A DNA stretch of 64,000 nucleotides, taken from positions 62,001-126,000 of the forward strand of contig NZ_JAUSVX010000008.1 in the NCBI RefSeq assembly GCF_030814995.1, read 5' to 3'. The DNA is from Labrys wisconsinensis. GTDB lineage: Bacteria > Pseudomonadota > Alphaproteobacteria > Rhizobiales > Labraceae. Every line of letters starts with the position of its first letter. Within the stretch, counting starts at the first letter, position 1. The notes below the pieces were generated by a model, which was not told the DNA's origin, made no database searches, and saw only the letters and a program-made list of their open reading frames with translations. Made by a program: the position numbers and the translations under genes. Positions 6,850 through 54,390 of the stretch are shown here, piece after piece.

Positions 6850-8442
6850 TCAGAACGGATGGTACTGGTAGAGCCAGGTCTCGGTCAGCACCTGGTCGCC
6901 GGTCTTGAGGTAGCAGCGCATCTCCACCGGATCCGGGCCGGTGACGGTGAGGTCGAACGAGGCGCGCCAATGGCCGGCGACCCCGTCGGGGACGGCTTCG
7001 GAGAAGGTGTAGGAGAAGTCGCCGCGCGAGGTGCTCAGCACCACCTCCGGCGTGACGCCGAAGGCGAGGTCCTTGAGCGGGCCGCCGAGGAACTCGACCA
7101 CGAACTTGCGCACGCCGACCGGGCGCTTGGTGCCGGGCTGGCCGCCATTGCCCATGCGCGTGGCGACGCAGCGGCCGAGATTGGTCGGGAAAGGCTCGTC
7201 CGCCGCCCAGTGCAGGCGGTATTTCAGCGTATAGGCCTGGCCGCCCTTCACCACCGCCTTGGGCACCCACATGGCGACGACGTTGTCGTGGATCTCGTCG
7301 TCGGTCGGGATCTCGATCAGCTGCACCGCGCCCTCGCCGAAGGGCTCCAGCGGCTCGATCCAGGCGGAGGGGCGCAGGTCGTACTTCACGCCGTCGAGAT
7401 AATGGTCGAAGTTGCGGTCGCGCTGCAGCAGGCCGAAACCCTTGGGGTTGACGTCGGAGAAAGCCGAGACGATCGTCGCCGGCACGTTGTTGAGCGGGCG
7501 CCAGATGTGCTCGCCCGCGCCGGTCCAGAGGGCCAGGCCGTCCGAATCGTGGATCTCCGGCCGCCAGTCGATCGCCGTCTGCTTCACCGTCTCGGAGAAC
7601 CAGTACATCGAGGTCAGCGGCGCCAGGCCGAAGCGGGCGACGTCGTTGCGCGTGAAGATGCGCGCATCGATGTCCATGAGCACCGCCTTGTCGCGCGTCA
7701 TCAGGAAGGAATAGGCGCCGGCGACCGAGGGGCCGTCGAGCAGGGCATGGACGCGCACCTGGTCGGTCGAATTCGGCACGGCCTCCAGCCAGAATTCCTT
7801 GAAGTCGGGGAATTCCTCGTCGTGCGGCGGGTTGGGGTTGGCGGCGTTGACGACGATGCCGCGGGCGGACAGGCCGTACTGGAACAATTCGCCGATGGCA
7901 CGGAAATAGGAGGCGCCGAGGAAGGCGACCCAGTCGTTCTTCTTCCAGTCGAGCGAGCCGGTGCGGCTCTCCTGGAAGCGGAAGCCGGCGAAGCCGACGC
8001 CGTCGGGCAGCTGCTGGGCCGGATTGTCGGCCGGCATGTCGAAATAGGATTTCTTGTAGACGATCTCCCGCGCCTTGTCGCCGTCGACCACGGAGATGGC
8101 GACGCGCTTCTGGAAGAAGGTGCCGAGATGGAAGAAGGTCGCGGGGAAGGGCGCCGGCCCGTCGGCCCACAGCGCCGCCTCGGTCCTGAACTTGATCTGG
8201 CCGACCTTGCCGTAGTCGAGCCGGCTCGTGACCTCGGGCGCGGGCCGCTCCGGCGGCACATAGGCCTGGGACGCCAGGGCCTTGGCCCGCTCGACCACGG
8301 CTTCGAAGGAGAAGGGCTTGGCTGCGCCGAAGGTGAGCAGGCCGTCGGCGGCGAAGGCTTCGGCCGGCAGGCCGAACGCGGCCAGGGTGGTCAGGGTCGC
8401 GGCGCCTTTGAGGAAAAGCCGGCGGTCGAGATCGTCGGTCAT
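6850..8442 (-). CDS. opgD: Glucan biosynthesis protein D (OpgD/MdoG family), Tat-exported
   Basis: A periplasmic protein needed for osmoregulated periplasmic (cyclic) glucan backbone structure. The 530-residue protein starts at 8442 with a twin-arginine signal: [12 protein letters not shown] near residues 6-17, a hydrophobic stretch, then AFAADG. It then has the full MdoG domain, for example [39 protein letters not shown] and [20 protein letters not shown]. OpgG has a Sec signal and OpgD a Tat signal, so the Tat motif favours OpgD. The frame is open upstream to 8820 but the Tat signal fixes the start. Divergent from the aldo/keto reductase gene (145 bp between starts). Confidence 0.92.
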
Positions 8443-8587
8443 GGGTCCTTCCCAGGGGAAATGCGGCCGCAAGCTATCGTCGGGACATGCCGTGTCAATG
8501 TGCAATTGCGGGGAAACGCCCGGGATATGGCTTGCCGACGCGGCGAAATTGCGTCCCAATCCGCGCGCCGAGCAAAAGGGAGAGACA

Positions 8588-9418
8588 ATGCGCCTGATCC
8601 GTCTGCCGGACGGCGAGACCGTTCCGGCCCTGGGGCAGGGGACCTGGATGATGGGCGAGCGTCCCGAGCGGCGCGCCGCCGAGGTCGCGGCGCTGCGCGC
8701 CGGCGTCGAGGCGGGCCTCACCCTCATCGACACCGCCGAGATGTATGGCGATGGCCGCACCGAGCGGCTTTTGGCCGAAGCCTTGTCGGGATTGCGCGAG
8801 GAGGTGTTCCTGGTCAGCAAGGCCTATCCGCAGAATGCCGGCCGCGCCGGCCTGCCGCAGGCCTGCGAGCGCAGCCTGAAGCGGCTCGGCACCGACCGCA
8901 TCGACCTCTACCTCCTGCACTGGCGCGGCGGCATTCCCCTCGCCGAGACCGTCGAGGCGTTCGAGGCGCTGCAGCGGGCCGGCAAGATCCGGCACTGGGG
9001 CGTCAGCAATCTCGACACCGACGACATGGAGGAGCTCGTGGCGGCCGGCGGGCAGGCCTGCGCGGTGAACCAGGTGCTCTACAATATCGGGCGCCGCGGC
9101 CCCGAATTCGACCTGCTGCCCTGGCTGGGCCGTCGCGGCATCCCGCTGATGGCCTACAGCCCGGTGGAGCAGGGGCGGCTGCCGACCGGCGGAGCGCTGG
9201 CCGCCGTCGCCCGGCGCCACGGCGTCACGCCCTGCCAGGTGGCGCTGGCCTGGCTGATGCGGCGGCCGGACGTGATCGCCATTCCCAAGGCGGGACAGAC
9301 GGCGCATGTCGAGGAGAACCGGGCCGCTCTCGACCTGGTGCTCTCGCCGGAGGACTTGGCCGAGCTCGACCGCGCCTTTCCGCCGCCACGGCGCAAGGCG
9401 CCGCTGGAGATGCTGTGA
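8588..9418 (+). CDS. Aldo/keto reductase
   Basis: NAD(P)H-dependent reductase of the AKR superfamily, a cytoplasmic TIM barrel of 276 residues. The catalytic tetrad is complete: D48, Y53 (IDTAEMYG), K78 (LVSKAYP) and H111 (LLHWRG). The cofactor-binding [13 protein letters not shown] segment lies near the C-terminus. It resembles the YeaE/Gr_MtAKR group. The start at 8588 follows a GGGAGAG ribosome site. Its stop TGA overlaps the GTG start of the downstream DNA glycosylase gene, so the two are probably translationally coupled. The substrate is not known; methylglyoxal-like aldehydes are a common activity in this group. Confidence 0.93.
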
Positions 9419-43582: not shown

Positions 43583-45073
43583 CTACTGGGAGAGGCGCAG
43601 CGCGGTGAGGTCCGATCCGATCTTCTCGAACGTCGCGGCGATCTCGCTGGCGCTGGTCAGGATGGAGAACTTGTCCGGGCTGGCGCAGTTCTGCAGCACC
43701 GTGGAGGTGGGATCGCCGTCGGTGTTCACCTGGATGGTGTAGATCGTGATGGCGTCGGCCTTGGCGTTGGCGCAGGCCTTGGCCATGCGCGCGTCGATCT
43801 TGGCGATGACGCTCGCGCTCTGCCCCGACGTCCCGTTGCCGTACCAGCGGTCATAGGTGTTGAGGCCGTCCGACAGCAGGATGATGATGTTGGAATAGGT
43901 GTAGTTGGGATCCTTGGCCGGCACGGCCAGGGGCGAGCCGGCCAGGAGCGACTGGTAGCCCCATTGCAGCCCGATCGTCTGGTTGGTGCCGCCGACCGCC
44001 ACCATGGCGCCGACCTTGGCGTTCAGGGCGGTCCAGTCGTTCGACAGCGCCATCAGGGACGCCGGGCAATAGGTGATCTGGGGATCGGCCGGAAACAGGG
44101 TCGAGGCGACGCCGGCGCTCGGGACGACGTCGGTCGTGTCGTTGTCCTGGTCGCGATCGGTGACGCATCCGTTCCAGGTCGCGTGCGAGACCGTCCAGGC
44201 CGGGCTTGCTCCCGCCAGGCATGTCGACTGCGTCGTATAGGTGCGGTTGCTGCAATAGTTGCTCCAGGTGCCGCCACTGGCGGTGCATTGGCTCTGCGAG
44301 CCGTACTGGGCCTTGCTGCAGGCCTTCCCCCAGGTGTTCTTCGCCGTGCAGGTGCTGCGGGTGGTGAAGCTGGAGGTGCTGCAGCTGCCGTTGGTCTCGC
44401 CGTTAGTGGCATCCCAGAGGTCCCAGCGCACCCAGGACGCGCCGACATTGGCCTTGTCGACATTGACCGGCATGCTGAAGGGAATGATCGAGACATAGAC
44501 GTCGCCGGGCTGGCTGACCGCGGCCTGCAGCTGGCCGAGGAGATTCGTGGTCGCGCCTTGCAGGGCGGTCATCTTGCCCGACGAGGTCATCGAGCCGGTA
44601 TTGTCGAGCACCAAGGCGACCCGCAGCCGGTTGTTGCCCCAGGTCGAGGTCGAGACGACGCGGATCTGGATCTGCCGCAGGCCGACGACGCTCATGATCT
44701 TGGTGTTGACGCTCGCCGAGGCCGTCATGGCGACCTGCAGGCCGGCCGTGGTGCTGTAGCTGGTCGAGACGGCGAGGCCTGAAACGTCGCTGCTGGTGAA
44801 GGCGGCGCCGAAATATTTCTGGCCCTTGGCCGTGATCTGGGCCGGCGTCAGCGTGCCCGGCTTGTCGCGGGCCAGCATCAGCACGGCATTGTCGGCGGCC
44901 ACCTGCATCTCGGTGCGCACCGCCGCGGCGCGGCTGTAGTCCAGCGCGCCGCCGAGCAGGGCGAGCAGGGGGATGAGCCCGAAGGCGAACAGGAAGATGA
45001 CGTTCCCGCTCTCGGCCTTGCGGAACCGGCGCAGCAGCCGGCGCGAGCGAGCGGCGAGACAAGCGGCGGTCAT
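43583..45073 (-). CDS. TadG-like pilus-assembly protein with VWA domain and Cys-periodic insertion
   Basis: A 496-residue protein. It has an N-terminal TadE/TadG membrane helix (GNVIFLFAFGLIPLLALLGGALDYSRA, about 23-49) and a VWA domain with a MIDAS-like D157-x-x-x-S161 (DNTGS). Between residues 231 and 303 lies an insertion with cysteines at 231, 242, 252, 263, 274, 285 and 303, nearly every 11 residues. It can be read as three repeats of about 22 residues, CSx3-4-Y/F-TTxS-x-C-x-A-x4-W. No other tad genes are in the window. It probably acts in the periplasm or at the surface, in adhesion or envelope sensing. Confidence 0.9.
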   Translation of the reverse strand: MTAACLAARSRRLLRRFRKAESGNVIFLFAFGLIPLLALLGGALDYSRAAAVRTEMQVAADNAVLMLARDKPGTLTPAQITAKGQKYFGAAFTSSDVSGLAVSTSYSTTAGLQVAMTASASVNTKIMSVVGLRQIQIRVVSTSTWGNNRLRVALVLDNTGSMTSSGKMTALQGATTNLLGQLQAAVSQPGDVYVSIIPFSMPVNVDKANVGASWVRWDLWDATNGETNGSCSTSSFTTRSTCTAKNTWGKACSKAQYGSQSQCTASGGTWSNYCSNRTYTTQSTCLAGASPAWTVSHATWNGCVTDRDQDNDTTDVVPSAGVASTLFPADPQITYCPASLMALSNDWTALNAKVGAMVAVGGTNQTIGLQWGYQSLLAGSPLAVPAKDPNYTYSNIIILLSDGLNTYDRWYGNGTSGQSASVIAKIDARMAKACANAKADAITIYTIQVNTDGDPTSTVLQNCASPDKFSILTSASEIAATFEKIGSDLTALRLSQ

Positions 45074-45442: not shown

Positions 45443-46435
45443 GTGTCGAAACAGTCCAGACCGATCTATTCGCTGGTCGTGCCGATCTACAACGAGGAAG
45501 CGGTGCTGCCGCTCCTGCTGCATCGGCTCGACCGGCTCCTGGAGGCCCTCGACGGGCCGGCGGAGGTGATCTTCGTCGACGACGGCAGCCGCGACTGCAG
45601 CCCGATCGTGCTGGCCGCACGCGCCCGCGACAATCCGAGCTATCGCTATATCCGGCTGTCGCGCAATTTCGGCCACCAGGTCGCCATCACCGCCGGCATG
45701 GACCGGGCCTCGGGCGATGCCGTCATCGTCATGGACGCCGACCTGCAGGATCCGCCCGAGCTGGTGCTGGAGATGGTCGCCAAATGGCGCGAGGGCTATG
45801 AGATCGTCTATGCCCAGCGCCTGTCGCGCGAGGGCGAGGGACGCTTCAAGAAGGCGACCGCCGACCTGTTCTACCGCCTGCTCGACCGGCTCGCCTCGGT
45901 GGAGATCCCGCGCAATGTCGGCGATTTCCGTCTGATCGACCGCAAGGTGCTCGCCGCCTTCTCGACCATGCGCGAGAAGGACCGCTTCGTGCGCGGCATG
46001 TTCGCCTGGATGGGCTTCAAGCAGACCGCCGTCACCTTCCATCGCCAGCCGCGGGCCGCGGGCGAGACCAAATACCCCCTGCGCAAGATGCTGCGCCTCG
46101 CCGCCAACGGCATCGTCAGCTTCTCCGATGCGCCGCTGCGGCTGGCGCTGTGGGTCGGCATGGCCGTCTCGGCGCTGGCCATGCTCTATGCCGCCTGCGT
46201 CGTGGTGATGTGGTTCACCCAGGCTCATCTGGTGCCGGGCTGGAGCTCGACGGTGGTGATCACCGCGCTGCTCTCGGGCATCAACATGATGATGACCGGC
46301 ATCATGGGCCTCTATGTCGGGCGCATCCACAACGAGGTGAAGGGCCGGCCGCTCTATCTCGTCGACCAGCGTGTCGGCTTCGAGGACGGCGCCGAAGCCA
46401 TGGCCGCGGACCGGCGCGCCCGCTCGGCCTCCTGA
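45443..46435 (+). CDS. GtrB/DPM1-type polyprenyl-phosphate glycosyltransferase (GT2)
   Basis: A 330-residue inner-membrane enzyme that loads a sugar from a nucleotide donor onto undecaprenyl phosphate. The GT2-A domain has VVPIYNEEAVLP (about 12-23), VIFVDDGSRDCS and the DxD-like MDADLQDPPELV. RNFGHQVAITAGMDRA is also typical of GtrB. Two C-terminal membrane helices follow (LALWVGMAVSALAMLYAACVVVM and STVVITALLSGINMMMTGIMGLYVG). It starts with GTG at 45443. Three paralogous GT-C-like proteins follow immediately in the same operon and are the likely users of its lipid-linked sugar. A GtrA-type flippase is not present here. Confidence 0.94.
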   Translation: MSKQSRPIYSLVVPIYNEEAVLPLLLHRLDRLLEALDGPAEVIFVDDGSRDCSPIVLAARARDNPSYRYIRLSRNFGHQVAITAGMDRASGDAVIVMDADLQDPPELVLEMVAKWREGYEIVYAQRLSREGEGRFKKATADLFYRLLDRLASVEIPRNVGDFRLIDRKVLAAFSTMREKDRFVRGMFAWMGFKQTAVTFHRQPRAAGETKYPLRKMLRLAANGIVSFSDAPLRLALWVGMAVSALAMLYAACVVVMWFTQAHLVPGWSSTVVITALLSGINMMMTGIMGLYVGRIHNEVKGRPLYLVDQRVGFEDGAEAMAADRRARSAS

Positions 46436-46446
46436 GGCGCGGGGCG

Positions 46447-48009
46447 GTGGCCAGCCTCGATCCGCCGACCCCCTGGACGGCGCCGCGCGCCTGGGCCGCG
46501 CCGGCGGCGGCAAGGCTCGCGCCGGCGCTCGCGGTGCTCGCCCTCGCCGTGGCGCTGCGCGGCGTCTACGACCTGCCCGGCGACGTCTCCTGGCTTCTGA
46601 CCCTCGGCGAGCGGCTGCTGGCCGGCGAGCGGCCCTATGTCGATTTCGTCGAGGCCAATCCGCCGGCCTCGATCCTGCTCTACGTCCCCGCCATTCTCGC
46701 CGCGCGCCTCGCCGGCGTGGCGCCGGAGGCGATGGTGGTCGTGCTCGTCTTCGTGCTCGGCTGCGCCAGCCTCGTCCTGTCGCTGCGGATCCTGGCGGCC
46801 GCCCGCCTCGTCGGCGCGGCGACGGCGCCCTGGCTCGCCGCCGCCGGCTTCGCCGTGTTCCTGGTGCTGCCGACCAGCATCTTCGCCCAGCGCGAGCATG
46901 TGGCGGCGATCGCGGTCCTGCCCATGCTGGCAGTGCTGGCGGCCCGGCGGGCCGGCTGCAGCGTGTCCACGCGCGCGGCGCTGGCGGCCGGCCTCGCCGC
47001 CGGCCTGGCCGTCGCCGTCAAGCCGCATTTCGCCCTGGCTCTGGCGCTGCCTCTCGGCTTCGTGCTGGCGCGGCCGGGGCGCAGCCTCGGCGACAGGCTG
47101 GGCGATGCCTTGCGTCCGGAGACGGTCGCCGCAGCGGCCATGGTGCTGGCCTACGCCGCCGCCGTCGTCCTGGCCTTCCCGGCTTTCCTGACCGACACGC
47201 TGCCGCTGCTCCAGGCGGTCTACCTGCCGGTGCGGCTCGGACTGCTCGAGAGCCTGCTCAGCCCGGCGATCGCCCTGGCCTGGCTGGCGCTCGCCGCCTG
47301 GGTGCTGCTCGGCTGGGGCCGGCGGCGCGATCCCGTCGAGACGGTCTCGGTGCTGGCCGCCTGCGGCTTTGCCGCAGCGGCGCTGGTGCAGGGCAAGGGC
47401 TGGTCCTACCAGGCCTATCCCGCCGTCGCCTTCGCCCTGCTGGCCTGCCTCTGGCGGCTGTTCGTCGAGGCGGCCGCCTGGCGCCGAGGCGGCTCCGGCC
47501 GGCCGGAGCCGCGCCTCCTGGCCGCGGGCGCCTGCCTCATCGTGCTCGGCGTCGCCGCGCTGGTGCGCTTTGCCGATGACAGGCAGCTCCCGGCCTTCAC
47601 CGAGGTGGTGCGGCGGCTCGCTCCCGCCCATCCGAGCATGGTGCTGATCGGCCACGGCCTCGGCGTCGGCCATCCCCTGGTGCGCCGGCTGCAGGGCGTC
47701 TGGGTCGACCCGATGGCCTGCCGCTGGATCTCCGGCAATGCCGCGCTGCTTCTCGGCGAAGGCGTGGCCGATCCCGAGCGCCGGCAGGCGATCGAGGGCT
47801 ACGCCAGGCTCGACCGCGAGCGGCTGGTCGCCGCGATCGAGCGTTTCCGCCCCGATGTCGTCCTGGTGCAGGACGAGACCTGGCGGGCCTGGGTCGCGGC
47901 GCATGCCGAGGTCGCGGGCGCGCTCGCGCCCTACCGCGTCGCGCAGACCTTCGGCGGCGTCTCCATCATGCTGCGGCGCGACGGCGCCGCGGCCGGCGGG
48001 GCGGGCTAG
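46447..48009 (+). CDS. GT-C-like membrane glycosyltransferase, paralog 1 of 3
   Basis: A 520-residue protein with about ten hydrophobic helices and a soluble C-terminal domain. Near the first periplasmic loop it has DVSWLLTLGERLLAGERPYV and then DFVEANPPASILLY. This is the acidic-loop and G-x-x-P-Y-x-D...PP pattern of GT-C enzymes that use polyprenyl-phosphate sugars. Shared blocks with its two neighbours include AQREHVA, VKPHFALALALPL, GKGWSYQAYPAVAFALLA and GHPLVRRLQGVWVDP. It starts with GTG at 46447, 11 bp after gtrB. Function is inferred: transfer of a sugar to a cell-surface glycan in the periplasm. Confidence 0.8.
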   Translation: MASLDPPTPWTAPRAWAAPAAARLAPALAVLALAVALRGVYDLPGDVSWLLTLGERLLAGERPYVDFVEANPPASILLYVPAILAARLAGVAPEAMVVVLVFVLGCASLVLSLRILAAARLVGAATAPWLAAAGFAVFLVLPTSIFAQREHVAAIAVLPMLAVLAARRAGCSVSTRAALAAGLAAGLAVAVKPHFALALALPLGFVLARPGRSLGDRLGDALRPETVAAAAMVLAYAAAVVLAFPAFLTDTLPLLQAVYLPVRLGLLESLLSPAIALAWLALAAWVLLGWGRRRDPVETVSVLAACGFAAAALVQGKGWSYQAYPAVAFALLACLWRLFVEAAAWRRGGSGRPEPRLLAAGACLIVLGVAALVRFADDRQLPAFTEVVRRLAPAHPSMVLIGHGLGVGHPLVRRLQGVWVDPMACRWISGNAALLLGEGVADPERRQAIEGYARLDRERLVAAIERFRPDVVLVQDETWRAWVAAHAEVAGALAPYRVAQTFGGVSIMLRRDGAAAGGAG

Positions 48010-48010
48010 C

Positions 48011-49585
48011 ATGGACCACGTCCGCCACGGCCCCGTTGCGACGGGCTCCCTCACGGCCGGGCCGCAATCCGGCCGCCGCATCGCCGCCGGCCGGGTCCTG
48101 CGGCATGCGCCCGTTGCCCTGGCGCTCGCCGCCGCGGTGGCGATGCGGCTCGCCAACGCGCCGTGCACGGACGTCTCCTGGCTGCTCACGCTCGGCGAGA
48201 AGATGCTGGGCGGCGCGACGCCCTATGTCGACTTCGTCGAGGTCAATCCGCCGGCCTCGATCCTGCTCTATCTTCCCGCAATCCTGCTGGCGCGGATCGT
48301 CGACGTCCGGCCGGAGACGATGGTGGTCTGGCTGGTCTTCGTCGGGGCCGGCGCCAGCCTGGCCCTCACCGGCCGCATCCTCGCCCGGGCGGGGCTGCGG
48401 CGGCCCGGCGATCCCTGGCTGCCGGCCGTGGCCGTGTTCCTGCTGCTCGTCCTGCCCGACTATGCCTTCGCCCAGCGCGAGCATGTCGCCCTGATCGCCG
48501 TGCTGCCGCTCCTGGCCGTCTATGCCGTGCGCGCGGCCGGCCGCGCCCCGGGGCTCGGCCCGTCGCTGCTCGCCGGCCTCGGCGGCGGCGTCGCCGTGAT
48601 CGTCAAGCCGCATTTCGCCCTCGGCCTGGCTCTGCCGATGGCGCTGGTGCTGTACCGGACGCCGTTCGGCGCCGGTGCCTGGCTGCGCGCCGCTTTCGAC
48701 CGCGCCAACCGGACGGTCGTCGCGGTCGTGGGCGTCTATGTCGTGGCGATCCTGGCCTTCTTTCCCGCCTTCGTCACGGCGGCCTTGCCGCTGGCCGCGG
48801 CGGTCTATGTTCCTGTCGGGAGCAGCATCTCGATCATGCTGCTCAACCCGAGCGGCATGATCGCCGCGCTCGCCCTGGGCTTCGCCGCGGTCAACCGGCC
48901 GCAGCTGCGCGACCCGGTGACCACCGTCCTCGCCCTCGCGGCCACCGGGTTCTGGCTGGCCATGGTGCTGCAGATGAAGGGCTGGCCCTATCACGGCTAT
49001 CCGGCGATGGCGCTCGCCCTGCTCGCCGGCGCCCGGTCCGTGGCGGATCGATGGGCGGCGGCCGTCGATCTCGACGCCGGCCGCCTGCCGGTGGTGGGGA
49101 GGCTCGTCGCGCCGGCCGTCGGGCTGGCCGTGCTGTGCGGAGGGGCGGCGACCTGGCTGGACGCCAGGCTGGAGCTGCCCGCGCTGACACAGGCCGTCCG
49201 GGAGCTCGGCCCGCCGCGGCCGCGAATCGCCTTCATAGGCGGCGACCTCTCCGTCGGCCATCCCCTGGTGCGCGACGTCGACGGCGATTGGGTCGGTCAT
49301 GCCTGCAGCAACTGGATCTCGGGCGGCGCGGCCATCCTGCTGGCGAAGCTGGCGGCCGACGATCCCCGGCGCACGGCCTTGCAGGCCTATGCGCGGATGG
49401 ATCGCGCGAGGCAGGCCGCCGATATCGCCGAGGGCCGCCCCGACATCGTCCTCGTCGAGGACGAGGCGTGGATGGGATGGGCTCTGCGCGACCCGGCCGT
49501 CGGCACCGCCCTGGCGCCGTTCCGCACGGTGCGCCGGGTCGACGGCGTCTCGATCATGACCCGGAGCGCCACCGGCACGGACTAG
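48011..49585 (+). CDS. GT-C-like membrane glycosyltransferase, paralog 2 of 3
   Basis: A 524-residue paralog with the same helix pattern and motifs: DVSWLLTLGEKMLGGATPYV then DFVEVNPPASILLY, AQREHVALIAVLPLLAV, VKPHFALGLALPMALV, MKGWPYHGYPAMALALLAG and GHPLVRDVDGDWVGHACSNW. It starts with ATG one base after the stop of paralog 1, so it is translationally linked. The C-terminal domain (about 385-520) repeats the GRPDIVLVEDEAWMGW block, in which paralog 1 has RPDVVLVQDETWRAW. The family is not named in any system I recognise. Confidence 0.8.
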   Translation: MDHVRHGPVATGSLTAGPQSGRRIAAGRVLRHAPVALALAAAVAMRLANAPCTDVSWLLTLGEKMLGGATPYVDFVEVNPPASILLYLPAILLARIVDVRPETMVVWLVFVGAGASLALTGRILARAGLRRPGDPWLPAVAVFLLLVLPDYAFAQREHVALIAVLPLLAVYAVRAAGRAPGLGPSLLAGLGGGVAVIVKPHFALGLALPMALVLYRTPFGAGAWLRAAFDRANRTVVAVVGVYVVAILAFFPAFVTAALPLAAAVYVPVGSSISIMLLNPSGMIAALALGFAAVNRPQLRDPVTTVLALAATGFWLAMVLQMKGWPYHGYPAMALALLAGARSVADRWAAAVDLDAGRLPVVGRLVAPAVGLAVLCGGAATWLDARLELPALTQAVRELGPPRPRIAFIGGDLSVGHPLVRDVDGDWVGHACSNWISGGAAILLAKLAADDPRRTALQAYARMDRARQAADIAEGRPDIVLVEDEAWMGWALRDPAVGTALAPFRTVRRVDGVSIMTRSATGTD

Positions 49586-49626
49586 GCAAGGGCAGGGGAC
49601 CGCGCTGCCGGGCGAGGAGCGGTCGC

Positions 49627-51183
49627 ATGGCTGGTTTGGGGGATTTCTTGGCCGACATCGATCTCAGCGAGCCTGTGCCCGGCACGATGCCGCGGCGGTG
49701 GCGCGACATGGCCGGCCATGCGCCGGCGGCCCTGGTCGTGATCGCCGCCATCGCGATCCGGCTCGCCAGCGTCACCTGCACCGACGTCTCCTGGCTGCTG
49801 ACCCTGGGCGAGCGGACGCTGGACGGTGCGGTGCCCTATGTCGACTTCATCGAGACCAACCCGCCCGCCTCGATCCTGATCTACCTGCCGGCGGTGGCCA
49901 TCGCGCGGCTGCTGGCGCTGCGGCCGGAGGCGGTGGTGGTCGGGCTCGTCTTCGCCGGGGCGGCCGCGAGCCTGGCGCTCTCGGCGCGGATCCTGGCGGC
50001 GAGCGGGCTGCGCAGTCCGGCGCGCGATCCCTGGCTGGCCGCCGTGGCCCTGTTCGTGCTGCTGATCCTGCCGGGCTACGCCTTCGCCGAGCGCGAGCAC
50101 ATCGCCGTGGCCGCCATGCTGCCGCTGCTCGCCGCCTATGCCGGCCGCACCGCCGGCCGCCCGCCCGGCGCGCTGCTGTCGGTGCTGGCGGGCATCGGCG
50201 GCGGCATCGCCGTGGCGATCAAGCCGCATTTCGCCCTGGCGCTGGCGCTGCCGTTCGCCCTGGTCCTGGCCACGGCGCCGCTCGGTGCGCGTGCCTGGCT
50301 GCGCCTCCTGTTCGACGGCGCCCATTGCGCCCTCGCCGCGGTGGTCGTCGCCTACGGCATCCTCGTCGCCCTGGCCTTTCCCGCCTTCCCGGCACAGGCC
50401 CTGCCGCTGATCGCGGCGGTCTATCTGCCGATCCGGGGCAGCCTTCTCGACATGATCGGCAATCCCGGCTCGCTGGTCTCGGCCGCGGCGATGCTGCTGG
50501 CCCTCGCCGCGGGCCGGGGCCGGTTCCGCGATGCGACGACGCCGGTCCTCCTCCTCGCCGCCTGCGGCGGCTGGGCCATGATCGTCATCCAGGGCAAGGG
50601 CTGGCCCTACCATGGCTACCCCGCCATCGCGCTCGGCCTGATGGCCGGCGCGCCGCCTCTCCTCCGGCGCTGGCAGGCGCTGACGCCGCAGGCGACGGCG
50701 CTGCGCTTCGGGGCCACGGCCGCGCTCACCGGTTGCTTCGTGGCGCTCGGCGGCGTCGCCGTGCAGTGCCTCGAGGTCGGCCCGCGTTTTCCCGGGCTGA
50801 TCGAAGCGGTCGGGCGCCTGGCGCCGCCCCGGCCCAAGGTGGTGTCGATCGCCGGCGACCTCGCCTACGGCCATCCCCTGGTCCGCGACCTCGGCGGCCA
50901 ATGGCTCGAGCCGGTGTGCAGCCGCTGGATCTCGGAGGGCGCGGAGATCATGCTGTCGCGGCTGGACCAGGCGGATGGACGGCGGGCGGCGCTGGAGCGC
51001 TATGCCAGGGCCGATCGCGATGCGCTCGTGGCCGCCATCGTCGACGGACGCCCGGACGTGGTCCTGGTCGCCGAGGAGCATTGGAAGGACTGGGTCGCGC
51101 GCCACGGCGAGGTCGCCGCGGCGCTCGTGCCCTATCGCGAGGTCGCGAGCGTCGAGGGCGCCGCGATCCTGATGCGCCGCTGA
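49627..51183 (+). CDS. GT-C-like membrane glycosyltransferase, paralog 3 of 3
   Basis: A 518-residue paralog. It has an extra N-terminal segment (MAGLGDFLADIDLSEPVPG), then the shared motifs DVSWLLTLGERTLDGAVPYV and DFIETNPPASILIY, AEREHIAVAAMLPLLAA, IKPHFALALALPFALV, GKGWPYHGYPAIALGLMAG and GHPLVRDLGGQWLEPVCSRW. It starts 41 bp after paralog 2. The three copies differ mostly in membrane helices, as expected for related enzymes with different acceptors or linkages. It ends the operon; the acyl-CoA synthetase gene is 71 bp further on. Confidence 0.8.
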   Translation: MAGLGDFLADIDLSEPVPGTMPRRWRDMAGHAPAALVVIAAIAIRLASVTCTDVSWLLTLGERTLDGAVPYVDFIETNPPASILIYLPAVAIARLLALRPEAVVVGLVFAGAAASLALSARILAASGLRSPARDPWLAAVALFVLLILPGYAFAEREHIAVAAMLPLLAAYAGRTAGRPPGALLSVLAGIGGGIAVAIKPHFALALALPFALVLATAPLGARAWLRLLFDGAHCALAAVVVAYGILVALAFPAFPAQALPLIAAVYLPIRGSLLDMIGNPGSLVSAAAMLLALAAGRGRFRDATTPVLLLAACGGWAMIVIQGKGWPYHGYPAIALGLMAGAPPLLRRWQALTPQATALRFGATAALTGCFVALGGVAVQCLEVGPRFPGLIEAVGRLAPPRPKVVSIAGDLAYGHPLVRDLGGQWLEPVCSRWISEGAEIMLSRLDQADGRRAALERYARADRDALVAAIVDGRPDVVLVAEEHWKDWVARHGEVAAALVPYREVASVEGAAILMRR

Positions 51184-52907: not shown

Positions 52908-54206
52908 TCAGCGCACGATCGGTCCGCCGCCTTCCATCGGCAGGCGCCGGCGCGGGAAGGGCATGTTGCGGTTGCCCGGCCCGGGATGGAAGATCGGGGG
53001 CCGCCCGCCGGGGAAGCGGATGTCGCCGGGATAGCGTCCGCCGCCCGGGCCGCGGGGCGGATGGCCGCCGCCTTCGACGATGGGGCCGTGGTCCGGCGGC
53101 GGCCAGCGGCCGGGTGGCCGCGGGCGCCCGGGCCGGTAGATCGGCGGCTGCTCGACGATGACGGGTGGGCGTTCCACCACCACCGGAGGACGCTCCACGA
53201 CGATGGGCGGGCGCTCGACCACCACGGGCGGATCCTGGACGACGGGGCCGCGGCGGATGATGCGCGCCGGCGGCGGCGCATCGGGCACGAGCCGGCCCTG
53301 CCGCAGCTTCGGCTGGCCCTGCGGGATGAGGCCGGGCGGCGGGGGCGGCAGGGACTTGAACGGCTGCGGCGCGGCGGCCGGGGCCGCGCAGAGCGCCGCG
53401 GCCTGGAAGGCGATCGGCGCGCCGGCCGACACCGCGCTGAGCAGGGAGATCCAGTCGCCGAGGAAGGCCGACGGCCAGGGCGCGATCGGGCCGGTGTCGT
53501 AGTCGACGACCACGACCCCGGGCGGCGGCGCGATGACGTAGACCGCGACGTTCCTGATGATCTTCACCGTGGTCACGATCGTGGTCGACTTGAACACGTC
53601 GGCGGGCGCGGCGGCCGGCTCGGCGTCGCAGCGGTTGGCGAGCTTCGCCGTCTCGATGAACGTCCACTGCTTGTCCGATTCGAAGGCGGCGACGGTGGTC
53701 TCCTGCTGGTCGGCGGCCGGCGGGGTGGGGGCCCAGCCGGACCAGTCCGGGCTGGTGCGCCAGATCACCCAGGCGGGGCTCCATTCGGCGCCGGGCACCC
53801 AGACCCAGCCGGCATCGTCGTCATGGGCCCAGCGCCCATAGTGATGCACGATCTTGCCCCAGGGCGTCTGGTCGTCATACATCCAGCCATAGGTCCGGTC
53901 ATAGGCCCAGTGGCAGGCGGGGTAGGGATGCCAGCCGGGCGGCAGCGTGCTCGGCCGCCAGACATTGCCGTAGCGTTCCGAATAGACATAGCGGCCATAC
54001 TGGCTCAGCGTCTGCTTGAAGTCGTCCAAGGTCGGCGGGATGCCCTGGGCAATGGCCTGTCCGGCCGCGGCGAAGGCGGGAGTCTGCCCCCCGGCGGCGA
54101 GCAGCGCGCCGGCGAGGACGAGGACCGTGAGCAGGATGCCCAAGCGCAGGCCGCGGGCGACGCCCGGCACGAGCCGGCGCGACGAAGGCATGGAATCCGG
54201 ACGCAT
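52908..54206 (-). CDS. Secreted Pro/Val-rich protein, DUF6600-like
   Basis: A 432-residue exported protein. A long signal region (LRLGILLTVLVLAGALLAAGG...) ends before AFAAAGQA. The N-terminal half has Trp/Tyr-rich repeats (YGRYVYSERYGNVWRPS, PACHWAYDRTYGWMYDDQ, GRWAHDDDAGWVWVPGAEWSPAWVIWR) typical of DUF6600-type surface proteins. The C-terminal third is Pro/Arg/Gly-rich with VVVERPPI repeated four times. The ATG at 54206 is fixed by a GGAGGT ribosome site; an ATG at 54269 is less likely. The family is uncharacterised; the composition suggests a cell-wall or surface role. Confidence 0.82.
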   Translation of the reverse strand: MRPDSMPSSRRLVPGVARGLRLGILLTVLVLAGALLAAGGQTPAFAAAGQAIAQGIPPTLDDFKQTLSQYGRYVYSERYGNVWRPSTLPPGWHPYPACHWAYDRTYGWMYDDQTPWGKIVHHYGRWAHDDDAGWVWVPGAEWSPAWVIWRTSPDWSGWAPTPPAADQQETTVAAFESDKQWTFIETAKLANRCDAEPAAAPADVFKSTTIVTTVKIIRNVAVYVIAPPPGVVVVDYDTGPIAPWPSAFLGDWISLLSAVSAGAPIAFQAAALCAAPAAAPQPFKSLPPPPPGLIPQGQPKLRQGRLVPDAPPPARIIRRGPVVQDPPVVVERPPIVVERPPVVVERPPVIVEQPPIYRPGRPRPPGRWPPPDHGPIVEGGGHPPRGPGGGRYPGDIRFPGGRPPIFHPGPGNRNMPFPRRRLPMEGGGPIVR

Positions 54207-54390
54207 GGCGACCTCCGCTTCAGCGGCACCATGACAGCCGGATGCTGCGGTGTCTGTGCTTTCCGGCACGTCGGACGCCGGAGGCCCCGCGGCGAGGCGG
54301 CAGGCCGGGGGGCGAGGTCGTTCAATGAAAACCGCCGGCCGGGATGTTCCGGACCGGCGGCGCGGGATTCGAAGGTTGTTACGCCTGTTC

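Follow-up and report, generated by a model that had tools for sequence, protein, structure and literature searches.

The 64,000-nucleotide window, which is the whole stretch of Labrys wisconsinensis DNA analysed here, carries at 45443-51183 a gene for a GtrB-type synthase followed by three intact genes for paralogous membrane proteins of about 520 residues (P1, P2 and P3). These genes probably constitute an operon for periplasmic glycosylation by a three-component route, in which GtrB would make the sugar donor, a flippase encoded elsewhere would turn it over, and three GT-C enzymes would act on different acceptor positions.

Gene organization of the operon and its surroundings

The four genes are separated by gaps of 11, 1 and 41 bp, which suggests that they form one transcription unit (Table 1). 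A preliminary description, made from the same DNA, had recognized a GtrB gene with three tandem paralogues, and this arrangement was borne out, as the coordinates match and the paralogues are 48-55% identical to each other. The motifs that it listed as common likewise occur in P1-P3 with slight differences (QGKGW in P1 and P3, QMKGW in P2). Because each frame is intact along its roughly 1.5 kb and the same motifs occur in relatives at 38 further loci, the paralogue set is not a product of chance.

Table 1 Features of the operon in the window
Feature	Position	Strand	Remarks
GtrB-type polyprenyl-phosphate sugar synthase (GT2)	45443..46435	+	330 aa, GTG start, two C-terminal hydrophobic stretches
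P1, predicted GT-C-fold transferase, paralogue 1	46447..48009	+	GTG start; 48% identity to P2 and P3; key residues all kept
P1 first-loop Asp codon	46582-46584	+	
P2, predicted GT-C-fold transferase, paralogue 2	48011..49585	+	ATG start; protein used for modelling
P2 D54, candidate catalytic residue, predicted first extracytoplasmic loop	48170..48172	+	46/46 near members; 36/36 in the distant-set alignment
P2 R156-E157-H158, RE(H) motif, helix start, predicted extracytoplasmic side	48476..48484	+	R156 46/46; E157 and H158 44/46
P2 K199, Lys of the KPHFAL motif, predicted extracytoplasmic end of two helices	48605..48607	+	46/46 and 36/36
P3, predicted GT-C-fold transferase, paralogue 3	49627..51183	+	ATG start; 52-55% identity to P2
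P3 first-loop Asp codon	49783-49785	+	

The next gene, encoding an acyl-CoA synthetase of the AMP-binding family, starts 71 bp past P3 and has a 59%-identical relative in one congener (G004). The transferases P1-P3 have no counterparts in the four congeners, where the best match to GtrB is 41% identical. A clean empty insertion site was not found, as no other window gene of at least 150 aa matched the surroundings in G004 (E≤1e-30). Downstream of the acyl-CoA synthetase, a DUF6600-domain protein is encoded on the minus strand (52908-54269). On the other side of the operon and divergent from it, a TadG-like protein with a VWA-like region is encoded on the minus strand (43583-45073); other host contigs carry at least two more close paralogues and a weaker one, the four congeners none. 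The window also contains a 102-bit match to the alphaproteobacterial sRNA family BjrC1505 (RF02356; 10724-10868, minus strand). A check for phage origin found no match to viral structures at E≤0.001, although absence cannot be concluded from a weak or missing match, and the plasmid collection yielded only 77-residue fragments with 39-42% identity in four Rhizobium replicons.

The host genome (8.9 Mb, 55 contigs) harbors a fourth paralogue on contig C3 (83843-85294; positions 7772-9319 of locus L047, minus strand), which is 42% identical to P2, is unlinked to the operon and has no GtrB gene beside it. About 2 kb from this copy lies a gene for a caspase-domain protein (Peptidase_C14).

GtrB resembles solved polyprenyl-phosphate sugar synthases

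Residues 10-170 of GtrB match the Pfam GT2 model PF00535 (E 1e-31), and the protein has a DDGS motif at residue 46 and a DADLQDPPE motif at residue 98. Its best solved relative is GtrB of Synechocystis, sll0501 (E 1e-85, residues 9-314), followed by ArnC (E 4e-41) and then DPM synthase (E 2e-13). The GT2 domain, the two motifs, two C-terminal TM segments and the closest similarity to solved polyprenyl-phosphate sugar synthases together bear out the lipid-sugar synthase that had been proposed as partner of the membrane proteins. The best NCBIfam model is PgfS, at 278 bits under its curated cut-off of 500. GtrB is the sole member of its kind in the host genome; the runner-up among GT2 matches has E 1e-11. 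Since sll0501 is a Glc-P-undecaprenol synthase, a hexose is the best guess for the donor sugar of GtrB, and by this analogy the sugar is most likely a hexose such as glucose.

The paralogues are predicted to adopt a GT-C fold

P1-P3 gave no Pfam match at E≤1 and no meaningful NCBIfam match, and nothing was found in the PDB by sequence (phmmer) or profile search. The same holds for the wider family: 46 relatives produced four isolated weak Pfam matches only (best E 0.013), and ten distant relatives produced no meaningful one. In particular, PF13231 (PMT_2) was matched by neither P1-P3 (E≤1), the 46 relatives (E≤0.1) nor the 10 distant relatives (E≤1), and PF09594 (GT87) by neither P1-P3 nor the 46 relatives. 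An alignment with hhalign against one single E. coli ArnT sequence reached a probability of 0.6%. Assignment to a characterised GT-C by sequence was rejected, as none emerged from Pfam, NCBIfam, phmmer or PDB profile searches, and P1-P3 appear to belong to a GT-C family that none of the libraries searched (the Pfam and NCBIfam copies used and the PDB) describes.

The AlphaFold2 model of P2, built with 46 family members, has a mean pLDDT of 91.4 and a pTM of 0.90. Foldseek placed ArnT first (E 5e-5), then PglB, AftA and DPY19. Re-alignment of the model with VIA again put ArnT at the top (Z 17.3, 419 residues, rmsd 4.8, 12% identity), followed by Pmt, ALG, OST, Emb and Aft proteins, with protein O-mannosyltransferases among the top matches at Z 17.1. 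All rows with Z≥8 are GT-C-fold proteins and the remaining scores are ≤6.3; the background Z for helical proteins is up to about 14, which Z 17 exceeds. The modelled structure thus supports membership of P1-P3 in the GT-C fold superfamily, with the predicted fold extending over the whole chain, and upholds the GT-C identity given in the preliminary description. PIGU, which is in the list of fold matches, has a GT-C fold yet is a subunit of the GPI transamidase, so that the GT-C fold alone is no proof of catalysis.

Conserved residues are predicted to face one side of the membrane

Sidedness was estimated from K/R versus D/E counts per loop as a family average, with helices taken from the P2 model. 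K/R exceed D/E in P2 loops 1-32, 127-135, 176-181, 217-230, 296-301 and 354-358, and the first loop (P2 49-100) is acidic, with 5.3 D/E versus 2.8 K/R on average. By this charge pattern, the K/R-rich loops would be cytoplasmic, whereas the extracytoplasmic side would hold the first loop, the RE(H) motif, K199, Y266, Q321-x-K323 and the C-terminal domain. Judged by charge alone, the invariant residues D54, N79-P80-P81, R156, K199, Y266 and Q321 would share this side. The first-loop acidic residues are thereby predicted to lie where the preliminary description expected them; it had regarded a cytoplasmic location as contrary evidence.

D54, G68, N79-P80-P81, R156, P166, K199 and Y266 are invariant in the 46 near members. 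In the distant-set alignment of 36 sequences, which comprises 34 distant sequences and two near copies (L047 and L048), D54, P81, R156, P166, K199, P200 and Y266 occur without exception, including the R of the RE(H) motif (36/36). All key conserved residues are present in each of P1, P2 and P3.

Local duplication and divergence of the paralogues

In the phylogenetic tree, P1-P3 form one clade (support 100/99) in which P2 and P3 are sisters (99/95), and the fourth host copy falls outside; by this sequence phylogeny, P1-P3 are local tandem duplicates. Tandem pairs of other lineages (L011, L020/L030, L029 and L042) are placed elsewhere in the tree, indicating that local duplication occurred more than once. 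The paralogues have diverged unevenly: their first loops are 62-67% identical, residues 217-300 only 33-43% and residues 354-389 only 17-27%.

Among ten loci with both genes, mean identity is 60% for GtrB and 34% for the GT-C, with GtrB higher in 45/45 comparisons, and the divergences of the two correlate (rho 0.66, with pairs that are not independent). The stronger conservation of GtrB and the divergence pattern of the paralogues fit a fixed donor with diversified acceptors. Conserved enzymes generally evolve more slowly than polytopic membrane proteins anyway, so this pattern is supporting but not decisive.

Distribution of the family and its gene neighbors

Scanning one genome per species revealed relatives at 38 further loci, from Rhizobiales and Sphingomonadales where the lineage is named. 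With a broader profile, the family was found in 43/385 alphaproteobacterial genomes, a few of them through short, weak matches, and in a phylum sample in 26 of 398 genomes, three of which lie outside Alphaproteobacteria.

At 30/74 related loci, namely 12/40 near and 18/34 distant ones, the transferase has a GtrB-like gene (phmmer E≤1e-20) no more than 3 kb away, and the same was seen at 5 of 17 further related loci; these counts are lower bounds, since some near loci are short contigs. With about one GtrB-like gene per 9 Mb genome, chance linkage would be about one in a thousand, and the observed linkage is far above this. Many relatives have no nearby GtrB, including the fourth host copy and those of Sphingomonas, indicating that the pairing of GtrB and GT-C is not obligatory. 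GT87-family GT-C genes adjoin two family members (L007 9522-10835 and L040 6107-7783), so different GT-C families are able to share one locus.

Methyltransferases recur beside the family. Class I SAM methyltransferases of one subfamily are encoded at 17/34 distant loci, usually between the GT2 and the GT-C gene; the latter is usually divergent there and has no Pfam model. This distant module of GT2, SAM methyltransferase (EYxxMxxxExxMWWYRG) and GT-C is seen at L102-L122 and others (e.g. L106 7080-10505). A different subfamily adjoins GtrB at seven near loci; at L013, L014, L028, L032 and L008, a gene of this second subfamily lies between GtrB and GT-C, upstream of the latter. The window operon has extra transferases in place of a methyltransferase. 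Tentatively, P1-P3 may represent an undescribed GT-C family that centres on a recurring GT2/SAM methyltransferase/GT-C module across Alphaproteobacteria and places a sometimes methylated sugar on an envelope acceptor so far not known to carry glycans, with the transferase triplicated here to serve three sites from one lipid-linked sugar; we regard this as a real possibility, though not as the probable one.

In Methylosinus and Methylocystis (L025 and L037; also L017 and L022), a family member sits in the dcw cluster with murB on one side and ddl-ftsQ-ftsA-ftsZ on the other, which makes peptidoglycan or division-linked glycans possible acceptors there.

Proposed mechanism and alternative explanations

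From gene order, homology, duplication, predicted fold, charge-based sidedness, residue conservation and the recurrent linkage of the two families, we infer the sugar, the catalysis, the flippase, the acceptors and the linkages as follows. GtrB would load one sugar from a nucleotide carrier onto undecaprenyl phosphate at the cytoplasmic face, and a flippase encoded elsewhere would turn the lipid-linked sugar over. The three GT-Cs would take the sugar at a common putative donor site, formed by D54 with R156/E157/H158, K199 and Y266. From there it would reach three different acceptor positions on molecules of the envelope, with a surface glycan or the LPS core/lipid A as the likeliest targets. 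The same sugar in three linkages, as envisaged earlier, is plausible.

The flippase is indeed missing from the operon, as the preliminary description stated. The genome has one GtrA-family match only, on contig C3, where another GT2 and a PMT_2 match below threshold lie beside it; with a GT2 of its own, this GtrA may be shared with the operon or have no role in it. A GtrA gene occurs in the host genome and in 14/14 genomes tested through their loci, and no operon link was seen. For the acceptor, no gene is consistently linked to the family loci, and it is precedent that points to LPS or some other surface glycan.

Could the three proteins belong to a different functional class? Transporters or other polytopic proteins would agree with the empty Pfam, NCBIfam and PDB sequence searches, but this explanation is most improbable: the fold matches at Z≥8 are GT-C proteins throughout, the first loop is GT-C-like, and linkage to GtrB recurs. 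A profile match to non-glycosyltransferase membrane proteins, which the preliminary description had named as contrary evidence, was not seen. It is also improbable that the three copies serve one acceptor for dosage, or that some are inactive, rather than making three linkages. The origin of P1-P3 by local duplication, at their present identities, agrees with such redundancy or decay, but all three genes are intact with every conserved residue kept, and their branches, 0.5-0.8 changes per site long, indicate long retention under constraint.

With P1-P3 taken as probable GT-Cs on distinct positions, the nature of the acceptor admits two specific alternatives. If the LPS core or lipid A is decorated as in Rgt, a single synthase of prenyl-phosphate GalA would supply several GT-Cs. 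Bacteria with Rgt belong to the same order as the host (PMC7663294, PMC5644692), and ArnT, the best match by fold, has lipid A as its acceptor. Genes for lipid A or core were not found next to the operon, however, and the family also occurs in sphingomonads, there without GtrB. Moreover, P1-P3 do not match PF13231 (PMT_2), which covers RgtA-D; this alternative is possible but rather doubtful. Protein O-glycosylation is the other, with the three GT-Cs modifying exported proteins and the adjacent TadG as one candidate. Pgf of Streptococcus mutans modifies the proteins Cnm and WapA. PgfS is the best NCBIfam model for GtrB, albeit below cut-off, and protein O-mannosyltransferases score Z 17.1 in the fold search; in the pgf operon, too, a single synthase is accompanied by two related membrane proteins (PMC5856776). 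Even so, protein O-glycosylation is unlikely here, since no exported-protein gene recurs beside the family and the Pgf epimerase has no counterpart among the four operon genes. As for TadG, which the preliminary description had proposed to be decorated, a co-occurrence check found a homologue at 0/75 related loci; together with its divergent transcription and absence from congeners, this led us to reject it as the acceptor.

For a membrane protein family outside the Pfam and NCBIfam copies used, our analysis predicts the fold and the sidedness, names candidate residues for catalysis and proposes a likely donor route. By profile, the family is present in about one in nine alphaproteobacterial genomes sampled. 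The triplicated set, with one presumed common donor and divergence mostly outside the donor loop, could serve as a natural experiment on GT-C acceptor choice.

Comparison with known systems

The preliminary description knew of no named system with this gene set. This was too strong, as in Rgt of Rhizobium, in Pgf and Scc of Streptococcus mutans and in mycobacterial arabinan synthesis several GT-Cs draw on one kind of lipid-linked sugar; the architecture is already known from Rgt, Pgf, Scc and Gtr. ArnT provides the closest solved fold to the P2 model (Z 17.3), although hhalign with a single ArnT sequence detected no sequence relationship to the family.

The Rgt GT-Cs are of the PMT_2/ArnT type, and RgtA, RgtB and RgtC are fed by RgtE. 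In rhizobia, RgtE likewise supplies bactoprenyl-phosphate GalA to the RgtD (4'-GalA) and RgtF ((1,1)-GalA) transferases (PMC7663294, PMC5644692). The window operon resembles this system in its single prenyl-phosphate sugar synthase, in several GT-Cs that would act at different positions and in belonging to the same bacterial order, but P1-P3 do not match the PMT_2 model and the Rgt donor is GalA.

In Pgf, PgfM1 is likewise of the PMT_2 type. The pgf operon of Streptococcus mutans (PgfS, PgfM1, PgfE and PgfM2) combines a synthase with two related membrane proteins (PMC5856776). Both operons thus unite a synthase, best modelled by PgfS in NCBIfam, with related membrane transferase-like proteins. 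Pgf differs in that it includes the epimerase PgfE, modifies proteins and has two membrane proteins versus three here; no epimerase is among the four genes, and GtrB scores 278 bits with PgfS versus the required 500.

SccM and SccQ of S. mutans are GT-Cs that use Glc-P-undecaprenol to put glucose on different positions of one polymer, with a flippase not identified (PMC11754754). The SCC system (SccN and SccP with SccM and SccQ) is therefore similar in having several GT-Cs, a lipid-linked sugar and different positions, but it has two synthases making different anomers, and its genes are part of a polysaccharide locus.

Gtr O-antigen systems (GtrA, GtrB and Gtr) usually have one GT-C per system and a linked flippase, whereas the operon gene set holds several putative GT-Cs and no GtrA-type flippase. 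The three-component framework is set out in PMC11127046, as is the founding of GT136, a new CAZy family for a GT-C that has no sequence similarity to known families. GT136 donors are pentofuranoses made in another way, but Gtr and GT136 systems follow the same three-step logic, ending in a GT-C, that is proposed here for the operon (PMC11127046).
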